A DNA stretch of 64,000 bases from Mycolicibacterium monacense. GTDB taxonomy: Bacteria; Actinomycetota; Actinomycetes; Mycobacteriales; Mycobacteriaceae. Below the pieces are notes generated by a model. It made no database searches, was not told the origin of the DNA, and was given only the letters and a program-made list of their open reading frames with translations. Below, one piece after another: positions 45,763 to 64,000 of the stretch. The number at the start of each line of letters is the position of its first letter. The stretch's first letter is position 1. The stretch is taken from the NCBI RefSeq assembly GCF_010731575.1, contig NZ_AP022617.1, positions 3,782,001 to 3,846,000 on the forward strand. The letters are read 5' to 3'. The position numbers and the translations under genes were made by a program.

Positions 45763-46632
45763 GTGCGGGGGATAATTCTGGCCGGTGGTTCGGGCACGCG
45801 GCTGCATCCAATAACTCTGGGGATTTCTAAGCAACTCGTCCCTGTGTACGACAAACCAATGGTGTACTATCCGCTGTCCACGTTGATGCTCGCCGGCGTC
45901 CGTGACATTCTCGTGATTACAACGCCCCACGACGCCGAAGGCTTTGCACGCTTACTGGGTGACGGGTCACAGTTCGGTGTATCTATCACCTTTGCTCAAC
46001 AGCCCTCGCCGGATGGCCTGGCGCAGGCGTTCGTTATCGGTGCCGACTTCATCGGTGCAGAACGTGTAGCACTGGTACTCGGAGACAATCTGCTATACGG
46101 GCCCGGTCTTGGCAACCAACTCGAACGCTTTTCTAGCGTCTCTGGCGGCGCCATCTTTGCGTACTGGGTAGCCGAACCCTCTGCTTACGGTGTAATCGAG
46201 TTTGACCACAATGGCGCGGCCGTATCTCTGGAAGAGAAGCCAAAGCATCCGAAAAGCAACTATGCCATTCCAGGGCTGTACTTTTATGACAATGACGTGG
46301 TCGAAATCGCACGTAATCTGACGCCGAGTGAACGCGGCGAGTACGAGATCACCGATGTCAATCGAGCTTATCTCGTAGAGAGACGGCTACAGGTGGAGGT
46401 ATTACCCCGCGGGACCGCTTGGCTGGATACGGGGACGTTCGATCAAATGACTGACGCCGCCGAGTACGTGCGCACAATGGAGCGACGCACCGGACTGAAG
46501 ATTGGAGTGCCGGAGGAGATCGCTTGGCGGAAGGGCTATCTGACGGACGATGAGTTGAGGACCCGAGCCGAGATGCTCGTAAAGTCCGGCTACGGCACTT
46601 ACTTGCTGGACCTTCTCGCCAGGGGGCGCTGA
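45763..46632 (+). CDS. rmlA: glucose-1-phosphate thymidylyltransferase
   Basis: A 289-residue RmlA from GTG 45763 ([16 protein letters not shown]), close to the 288 residues of M. tuberculosis RmlA. The nucleotide-binding loop is [11 protein letters not shown] (residues 6-16), then [42 protein letters not shown] and [13 protein letters not shown]. It makes dTDP-glucose, step 1 of dTDP-rhamnose synthesis. Codon use is more A/T-ending than in the core genes, so it is probably a second, acquired copy beside a housekeeping rmlA elsewhere. The stop overlaps the rmlB ATG (TGATG). Confidence 0.95.
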
Positions 46633-47630
46633 TGTCGCGCTTGCTAGTAACTGGAGGAGCTGGCTTCATCGGTTCGAACTTTGTCCATCATGTTATCGAA
46701 CACACCGATTATGACGTCATTGTGCTGGATAAACTCACCTACGCGGGAAACTTGGCGTCGTTGTCTGGGCTGCCGGAAGCGCGAGTTCGCTTTATTCAAG
46801 GCGACATCACTGACGCGTCGCTAGTCGACGACCTTGTACCCACCGCCGATGCGATCGTGCATTTCGCTGCAGAGACGCACAACGATAACTCTCTGCACAA
46901 CCCAGAACCTTTTTTGCAGACCAACATACTCGGCACTTTCAGCCTATTAGAGGCGGCGCGCAGACACGAAACACGCATCCACCATATTTCCACCGATGAG
47001 GTCTATGGGGATTTAGCGTTGGATGCGCCAACAAGGTTTACCGAAATCACTCCATACAACCCATCGTCGCCATACTCGTCAACCAAAGCCGGCAGCGATC
47101 TATTAGTCCGGGCGTGGGTACGGTCGTTTCAGGTGGAGGCAACCATATCAAACTGCTCGAACAATTACGGGCCGTACCAGCACGTCGAGAAGTTTATTCC
47201 TCGGCAGATCACAAATGTGCTGCGCGGAATTCGTCCCAAACTCTACGGCCAAGGCCTGAACGTGCGCGACTGGATTCATGTTGATGACCACTCTTCAGCA
47301 GTATTGCGGATCCTCGAAAACGGCAAAGTCGGTGAGACTTACCTCATCGGCGCCGACGGCGAAAAAGACAACAAGACTGTGGTAGAAATGATCCTTTCCC
47401 TGATGGGTCAGCCATCGAACGCGTATGACCAGGTAACCGACCGGGCTGGCCATGACCTACGTTACGCAATCGATCCGACCAAGTTGCGCGAAGAGCTCGG
47501 CTGGCAGCCGCTGTATCGCGATTTCGAACAGGGTCTTATAGCGACGATAAAATGGTATCGCGAACATGAAGACTGGTGGGCGCCCGTCAAGGGCGCAACT
47601 GAAGCATTCTATGCGAAACTTGGACAATAA
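46632..47630 (+). CDS. rmlB: dTDP-glucose 4,6-dehydratase
   Basis: A 332-residue extended SDR. NAD motif [12 protein letters not shown] (residues 7-18), HFAAETHND, active-site segment STDEVYGDL, YxxxK in YSSTKAGSD and the rhamnose-pathway stretch [16 protein letters not shown]. It catalyses step 2 of dTDP-rhamnose synthesis. Overlaps rmlA by one base, and rmlCD follows 20 bp later, so this is a single operon. Confidence 0.95.
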
Positions 47631-47650
47631 TCACAGGACGAGAGTGAGCG

Positions 47651-62290: not shown

Positions 62291-62471
62291 GGCCCTTTCG
62301 TAAACTCAGCCCGCATCGAGGCAGCAAACGGTGCCGCTTGCGTAACGTTGCCGGAGGCGTCCCCCATGCCGGCTGTCGGTTTCTGGGGCTGCGTGCGAGC
62401 ATCTCGACGTATCGGAGGATCCGTCTGGGCGTCTATCGAGATGGCGCTGCACATAAATCGCTACCGCAGGC

Positions 62472-64000
62472 CTAGCCTGAGCACGCAGGCACCGATATCT
62501 TGGGATCGACAGTGTCAATCAGCGGCTGCACCGGGACGCGTGCAGGGCCGGCTGACGTCGGCTCCGAAAGCCGGAAGCTCAGCTCGCCGGATTGACCGGG
62601 CGGTATGCCGAGCTGCACTTCGAAAGTCGGGTGCCCACGCTCGGTCCCGCTGAAGACGGGCACCTGTTGTCCGTCGACCAACGCGCTTACCAACGTCGCG
62701 CCTGTCGTCGCCAGCAGACGGACGGAGGTGACCATCGCACCTTTGGGCACGTCTAGCGGAACATCTGGGCGAATTCCTGGCGCCGTGGCGACGTAATCCG
62801 GAAGCCCCGTCTTCGGCGCCTCGTTCGCCAGCCGAATGGTGACGGTGGACATTCTTGTGTCTGCATTACATCCGTCAGCGACGTACTCGATCTGCCTTCT
62901 CAGGTAGTAGTCGAGCTTATTCCCGCCCAAGTTATTGATGACGACCTCGGCGTACGGCGCGGGATCATCGGGAACCACATGAGCCAGCGGAGTTTCTTCG
63001 AGTAGTTCCTGCTCGGCAGGCACCGAACCCCACACTGCAATCCGACGCTCGCCCACGGCCTTCCCAAGTGCGTCGAGCAGCTTCTGAGGCGATTCGATTC
63101 GTCCCGTGATCTTTCGGACCACTTCGTTGGCGATGTCTTGGAGATACGTCTTGCGCGCCGTCTGATCCGTGGGGAAACGGCTGTACGCGGTCGACTCGGT
63201 GAGTTCGACGACGTTGTCCTTGGTAATCACCTCACCGTCGGGCATCCGCACCGGGCCTACTGCTCCGAGCACGTAACTCAGCGTCACCGGATCGAGAAGG
63301 ATGACGCCGTCGACGTTCATCCCCGTCTGCTCCGCCCACATCGACTTCCAAATCTGGGCTGCGTATGGGAAGTGAGAGCTCAGGTTGCTGTTACGGAAAT
63401 CCGTCATCGGATTGGTGAATCCATACATATCCGCGAACTCACGACCCAAGTCCACCGAAGCCGAGGCGCCGTCCAGATCTCGATTTGATGCCAAGGTGTC
63501 GACAGTCGCGGTGCCGTTGTCGAACCGCAGAATGCCGAACCCACCGAGTAGGCCTCCGGTGCCCCGCGCTTCGGCATTCGTCTGAAATGCCATGAAGTAC
63601 GTACGAGCGCCGTCCGCGCCCATCATCGACGGCGCGAGACGCGCAGCCAGCGCCGTGTTGTCAAGTAGGCCAGCGACATTGGACGTTTGTTCCTGCAATT
63701 GCGATCGAGCGTCGCGCAGGAGTGACACGTAGCCCGGATCAGAAATCGCTTTCGCATTCTCATCAAGCTCGGTGGCGGCCGCTGCCAGCGCGGTCAGATC
63801 GGGTTCGCGTTCGCGGAGCGCCTGAACGTCTACACGGCTCCCTTGCAGCAGTTGATCGGGTGAGAGTACGGCGCCGACATCTGCAGCTGGCTGCAGTACA
63901 TCGGCCGCGAGACCGAGTACGACGTCGGAGATTTCTTGGCCTGTGGTGAACGGATCACCTAACCACGGCACCGCCGAAGCAATACTCCAGGGAATCGAAT
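62472..64000 (-). CDS. DUF4012-domain protein, partial
   Basis: The 5' end lies beyond the right edge; the frame stays open to base 64000 (SIPWSIASAVPWLGDPF at the visible start), giving about 509 residues. The family pattern includes ARTYFMAFQTNAEARGTGG, GGFGILRFDNGTATVDTL, SHFPYAAQIWKSMWAEQTG and GVILLDPVTLSYVLGAVG. The C-terminal domain is beta-rich with a Cys pair. DUF4012 proteins are recurrent in actinobacterial exopolysaccharide loci and are predicted to be extracytoplasmic. It is richer in G/C than the glycosyltransferase genes. It precedes the BY-kinase by about 180 bp. Confidence 0.85.
   Translation of the reverse strand, partial: SIPWSIASAVPWLGDPFTTGQEISDVVLGLAADVLQPAADVGAVLSPDQLLQGSRVDVQALREREPDLTALAAAATELDENAKAISDPGYVSLLRDARSQLQEQTSNVAGLLDNTALAARLAPSMMGADGARTYFMAFQTNAEARGTGGLLGGFGILRFDNGTATVDTLASNRDLDGASASVDLGREFADMYGFTNPMTDFRNSNLSSHFPYAAQIWKSMWAEQTGMNVDGVILLDPVTLSYVLGAVGPVRMPDGEVITKDNVVELTESTAYSRFPTDQTARKTYLQDIANEVVRKITGRIESPQKLLDALGKAVGERRIAVWGSVPAEQELLEETPLAHVVPDDPAPYAEVVINNLGGNKLDYYLRRQIEYVADGCNADTRMSTVTIRLANEAPKTGLPDYVATAPGIRPDVPLDVPKGAMVTSVRLLATTGATLVSALVDGQQVPVFSGTERGHPTFEVQLGIPPGQSGELSFRLSEPTSAGPARVPVQPLIDTVDPKISVPACSG

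Follow-up and report, generated by a model that had tools for sequence, protein, structure and literature searches.

Genes of the island

The window analysed here, a stretch of 64,000 nucleotides (C1:3782001-3846000) of the 6,042,466-base single-contig genome of Mycolicibacterium monacense, carries in its right-hand part an island of polysaccharide genes resembling Wzx/Wzy-type capsule loci, which includes a gene for a DUF4012 protein that runs past the end of the window. The guanine-plus-cytosine content is 0.577 across 45745-66777 against 0.684 to the left (1-45000) and 0.677 to the right (67267-82000), values that agree with an initial annotation, which had described the island as AT-richer than its flanks, and that support a base composition foreign to the chromosome. 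On the left side we find mmaA-type mycolic acid methyltransferases, a lipG-like gene and an ABC1-type gene, and the right end, beyond the window, is a nucleotide-sugar dehydrogenase (L003:3449-4777) bordered by rplA, with rplK, nusG, secE and hadABC-like genes following.

All the island genes that the annotation had listed are present about where it had placed them, as judged from profile matches and open reading frames (ORFs). The rhamnose donor set comprises, on the plus strand, rmlA (glucose-1-phosphate thymidylyltransferase, 45745-46632; TIGR01207, 463 bits for a cut-off of 361), rmlB (dTDP-glucose 4,6-dehydratase, 46632-47630; PF16363/PF01370) and an rmlC-rmlD fusion (47651-49066; PF00908 and PF04321, with TIGR01214 over and TIGR01221 below its cut-off). 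A second RmlA, 70% identical, is encoded elsewhere in the genome, so that at least for rmlA the island genes are an extra set. The announced five glycosyltransferases (GTs) plus one of family GT26 resolved into three GT4 enzymes matching PF00534 (53220-54308, plus strand; 54372-55484 and 55655-56626, minus strand), two GT2 enzymes matching PF00535 (59121-59951 and 59961-60827, both minus) and a GT26 enzyme of the WecG/TagA/CpsF kind (58352-59176, minus; PF03808, and TIGR00696 over its cut-off). An IS3-type insertion element (49420-50632, plus strand), with a transposase at 49583-50620 (PF00665/PF13683) and 22-bp terminal inverted repeats (95%), lies among these genes, and no target duplication was found at its ends.

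Three further proteins that the annotation had named, a Wzx flippase, a fused Wzz/BY-kinase and a low-molecular-weight protein-tyrosine phosphatase (LMW-PTP), were likewise recovered by their families over cut-offs. The flippase (51780-52973, plus) has about 10 hydrophobic segments and matches PF01943 with 42 bits for a cut-off of 28, as in Wzx/Wzy-dependent loci. The Wzz/BY-kinase (60902-62290, minus) matches PF02706 and PF13614 as well as TIGR01007 (179 bits, cut-off 108), and its sequence has both a Walker A motif and, at the C-terminus, a cluster of tyrosines (YSYQYGYYGE), in line with a Wzz co-polymerase joined to its kinase. The Wzb-like phosphatase (50711-51223, minus) matches PF01451 with E 1.2e-22 and has the CTGNICRS and DP motifs.

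The proposed Wzy-like polymerase (56662-58098, minus) shows about 10 hydrophobic segments and a GDGLG...H loop (IFGDGLGTE...DIHSSYWMVYWKAGIVGL) that we take to be O-antigen-polymerase-like. Here the profile check of the two membrane proteins gave a divided answer: the flippase belongs to PF01943, but the polymerase candidate matched no Pfam or NCBIfam family over cut-off (MgtC alone appeared, at E 0.0026, short of its own cut-off), and a homologue search found only the protein itself among 7997 scored candidates. A single-sequence structural model reached a confidence (pLDDT) of 45 and was set aside as useless. As a candidate drawn from topology and a loop motif, the Wzy assignment is the weakest of the gene calls and is a point against the reading favoured below.

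Some neighbouring features were also observed. At the left edge of the island, 44573-45271 contains what looks like the C-terminal end of an mmaA-type methyltransferase, left as a remnant (57% match), next to a gene (42963-44543, minus) whose protein has a PE-PPE domain and a long acidic tail; similar genes occur beside several other islands. To the right of the window (genome C1 ~3856972-3882227; L003:12972 to L004:18227) there is an extracellular contractile injection system cluster with an eCIS core domain, tail sheath, tube, baseplate (PF04717, PF04865), Tail_P2_I and an AAA ATPase.

A fixed chromosomal site with a variable middle

The spread of the locus was followed in 297 genomes of the genus, one per species, and the island variation described here is therefore variation between species. 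DUF4012 (PF13196) occurs in 93 of them, at the same chromosomal site in many, which does not support the strain-specific island first proposed; nor is the locus found in essentially all mycobacteria, which the annotation had named among the outcomes that would refute its reading. We inspected the surroundings of 60 DUF4012 places in 57 genomes, picked mainly by score and contig size, over 20 kb or, in some cases where a contig ended, less. The Wzz/BY-kinase lies within 1.5 kb of DUF4012 at 50 of the 60; 24 places show the mmaA/lipG/ABC1 side of this site and 6 its rplA/had side, 12 lie by accD5, and 18 have none of these landmarks.

Twelve islands could be read whole from rplA to mmaA (genomes G000, G177, G206, G253, G231, G009, G199, G096, G283, G191, G095 and G167). 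LMW-PTP, Wzz/BY-kinase and DUF4012 are present in all twelve, with this edge set in either orientation, and the remaining genes vary. Among 20 complete DUF4012-negative genomes, the gap between rplA and mmaA measures 64-2282 bp in 15, that is, an empty or short site, and 8.7-10.1 kb in three, one of which holds rmlA/rmlB/rmlCD and one an IS3 transposase; in the other two no mmaA was seen within the fetched stretch. Altogether, the twelve islands and the empty or short site in negative genomes point to an occupied site with conserved edges and a middle that varies, as serotype loci have. In one genome (G102, L235) only rmlA, rmlB and rmlCD are found at the rplA/mmaA site, perhaps as the remnant of an island.

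In a wider sample, 79 of 246 Actinomycetota genomes carry DUF4012, spread over 64 of 170 genera, and it is present in 11 of 72,556 plasmid records, 7 of them from Rhodococcus. On plasmid pDK1 (L264, Rhodococcus sp. DK176) the gene stands amid polysaccharide genes, making this locus a possible vehicle for transfer; around the copy on a plasmid of [Eubacterium] eligens the genes shown are mostly unrelated.

The missing initiator

No initiating polyprenyl-phosphate sugar transferase was found in the window or in its right extension. The suggestion that it might lie past the right edge has to be abandoned, as the dehydrogenase and rplA occupy that place, and the three genes of the initiator family PF02397 in this genome (3458116, minus; 3453233, plus; 1037242, plus) are all at least ~370 kb away from the island. 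A remnant near the insertion element was also sought and rejected: with 70 initiator ORFs against window positions 44001-64000, tblastn gave one match below E 1e-3, from an L118 ORF (25% over 136 amino acids, E 9.7e-6), which falls at ~46635-47000, inside rmlB. Loss through the insertion element itself is unlikely, because six related islands likewise have no initiator.

The supposition that this chemistry is foreign to the genus finds no support, since PF02397 genes were found in 231 of the 297 genomes; they occur in 93/93 DUF4012-positive and 138/204 DUF4012-negative ones (Fisher p 5e-13, uncorrected for kinship). Among the twelve whole islands, seven contain an intact initiator, in G191 it is divided between two frames, and in G000, G206, G253 and G095 it is absent; the partly seen islands of G042, G002 and G244 lack it as well, and by the genome-wide match lists no initiator of these three genomes falls in the stretches concerned. 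All seven genomes with an initiator-less island encode elsewhere a protein 88-100% identical to one PF02397 enzyme of our genome, init_B2 (L045:13095-14585). In nine genomes used for comparison, whose islands do hold an initiator, matches to init_B2 do not exceed 78%, and the best outside the island does not exceed 63%. In the three genomes whose init_B2 neighbours were read (G000, G206 and G002) the gene stands beside accD5, a site where G054 carries a whole DUF4012 locus with an initiator 78% identical to init_B2. We think that init_B2 was probably left at, or moved to, this second hot spot, from where it serves the island in trans. The broken initiator of G191 (L251, C1:3351103-3352555) was noted in a genome that also has an intact init_B2 relative elsewhere (94%).

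That the island is decaying and its polymer no longer made would agree with the missing initiator, with the IS3 element and with the split frame in the related G191; however, every other island ORF is open, DUF4012 and its neighbours are still 80-94% identical within the clade and an intact initiator exists elsewhere in 7/7 genomes, which makes this reading highly improbable.

A more serious competitor, still unlikely in our opinion, keeps the same locus but assigns priming to the housekeeping WecA, which would put GlcNAc-1-phosphate on decaprenyl phosphate; the island GT26 would then add the second sugar, as happens in WecG/TagA systems, and the orphan PF02397 enzyme would serve something else. 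The genome has two PF00953 genes, the number expected for WecA and MraY, which we presume them to be. Moreover, GT26 is present in 7/7 initiator-less islands and in 0/17 examined loci with an intact initiator ORF, or 4/21 when G004, G136, G196 and G142, with GT26 and initiator both near DUF4012, are added (Fisher p 2.8e-4), a distribution that fits WecA priming as well as priming in trans; in addition, the seven genomes are close relatives and hence not independent. Against WecA priming stands the presence of a PF02397 gene in all 93 DUF4012-positive genomes, together with G002, whose single PF02397 gene lies by itself between accD5 and purK, the 8 kb seen there holding no other polysaccharide gene. 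As for GT26, several genomes without DUF4012 (e.g., G006, G045 and G108) have it at ~1.5 kb from a PF02397 gene, so that it does not need WecA and loses weight as a sign of WecA priming alone.

Two further loci of this genome, L044-L045 (C1 3.43-3.46 Mb) and L046 (C1 1.036 Mb), combine PF02397 initiators with glycosyltransferase genes and multi-span proteins and are possibly more polysaccharide loci. Their classification as Wzx/Wzy loci was dropped when Pfam gave no family for six presumed Wzx/Wzy/Wzz proteins.

The DUF4012 protein

The DUF4012 gene (62472-64322, minus) encodes 616 amino acids with one N-terminal membrane segment, long helices, a domain like that of the LytR-CpsA-Psr (LCP) proteins and a C-terminal beta-sandwich; its nearest named relatives, 92% and 90% identical, are from Mycolicibacterium monacense and Mycobacterium sp. 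JLS, respectively. Its predicted structure shows the LCP fold, which supports the earlier view of DUF4012 as a candidate envelope factor. The charged residues E143, R145, D278 and R282 never vary across an alignment of 44 members, of which 43 keep R274 and Q287. Compared with Cps2A (R267, R362, R374, D371, Q378, D234 and D246), the R-D-R-Q order is preserved.

Several results weigh against a true LCP enzyme. With Foldseek the top match was LTA4H, through the C-terminal domain, and the best LCP had an E of 1.2e-3. The PDB matches of the DUF4012 profile include no LCP, PF03816 is absent from the families listed for the 44 members (E ≤10, HMMER filters on) and hhalign gave a probability of 4.9% for DUF4012 versus LCP; the link by sequence was accordingly rejected. 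The R-D-R-Q residues are differently spaced, and the alignment shows no evident counterpart of Cps2A R267 or D246, which may mean an incomplete catalytic site. In this line, DUF4012 could be LCP-like in fold without being a transferase, binding the lipid-linked polymer or aiding the Wzz/BY-kinase, with the polymer released or attached by housekeeping LCP proteins, of which three genes lie elsewhere in the genome. The partial site favours this, as does the B. longum homologue, which PMC5412050 calls only an auxiliary envelope protein; the invariant residues are nevertheless more than a scaffold needs, and we find the idea rather doubtful.

A small protein with a signal-peptide-like start (L003:2447-2809, window 64447-64809, minus) was found next to DUF4012, with 70-87% identity across seven related genomes.

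A proposed pathway

From the families, motifs, site, edge set and missing initiator, together with the predicted fold, we infer the following route. Cytoplasmic glycosyltransferases would build a rhamnose-containing repeat unit on polyprenyl phosphate, the first sugar coming in this clade probably from the orphan init_B2 beside accD5, in trans. The PF01943 protein would flip the unit, the Wzy-like protein polymerise it, and the Wzz/BY-kinase, reset by the LMW phosphatase, set the chain length. DUF4012 would most likely take the finished polymer off its lipid and attach it to peptidoglycan or arabinogalactan in the cell wall, a role suggested by its predicted LCP fold and by a position like that of the LCP protein in pneumococcal-type loci. 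Wall attachment may spare a Wza-type exporter only if the polymer is an inner one, or long enough to reach out; the mechanism leaves crossing of the mycomembrane unaccounted for. The original idea of a phospho-controlled rhamnose heteropolysaccharide locus is supported in part, the polymerase candidate belonging to no family.

On balance we favour, with reasonable though far from full confidence, a Wzx/Wzy-type capsule locus with conserved edges and a swapped middle, primed in trans and with DUF4012 in wall attachment. The broader proposal is more tentative, with somewhat less than an even chance: that DUF4012 forms a so far unrecognised branch of the LCP superfamily, which about a third of the Actinomycetota genomes sampled carry and which fastens Wzy polymers to the wall, and that in mycobacteria it marks, at one hot spot, a serotype-like locus whose initiator, in one clade, is uncoupled and acts in trans from the accD5 site. 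If true, a sizeable share of environmental mycobacteria would carry a capsule-type locus comparable to the serotype-defining ones elsewhere, its polymer lying outside the arabinogalactan, lipoarabinomannan and glucan picture; DUF4012 would gain a testable function, which might explain how the cell holds such a polymer while lacking a Wza-type exporter, and the split initiator would allow a clean genetic test.

Comparison with known systems

Related gene sets are found in Bifidobacterium longum, which has no mycomembrane, and in Streptococcus pneumoniae, whose cps phosphatase is of the PHP type where the island has an LMW-PTP. A literature search that most subscription journals lay outside returned no paper on a mycobacterial Wzx/Wzy locus and none on DUF4012 as LCP-like. 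LCP glycopolymer transferases and DUF4012 share the predicted fold, the N-terminal membrane anchor and the R-D-R-Q order, but DUF4012 differs by having no detectable sequence membership, an extra C-terminal beta-sandwich and a partial active site. Rhodococcus pDK1 resembles the island in its DUF4012 (56% identical), nucleotide-sugar dehydrogenase, flippase-like protein, glycosyltransferases and sugar transferase, although it is a linear plasmid with fucose instead of rhamnose genes and no Wzz/BY-kinase within the stretch shown.

The S. pneumoniae cps locus (Cps2A and others), partly described in PMC7831098, is alike in placing an LCP protein first and in its Wzd/Wze kinase pair, phosphatase, Wzx/Wzy route and variable middle; in contrast, the island has DUF4012 in the Cps2A position, the kinase fused to Wzz and the initiator elsewhere. 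In B. longum 105-A, the exopolysaccharide/capsular polysaccharide locus, as described in PMC5412050, contains a priming transferase, DUF4012, wzz, glycosyltransferases and rml genes, with conserved edge genes and a variable middle. It is unlike the island in that its initiator lies inside the locus, and it occupies a different site in a different organism; this kind of locus, with DUF4012, wzz, initiator and rml genes between conserved edges, is already known from it.
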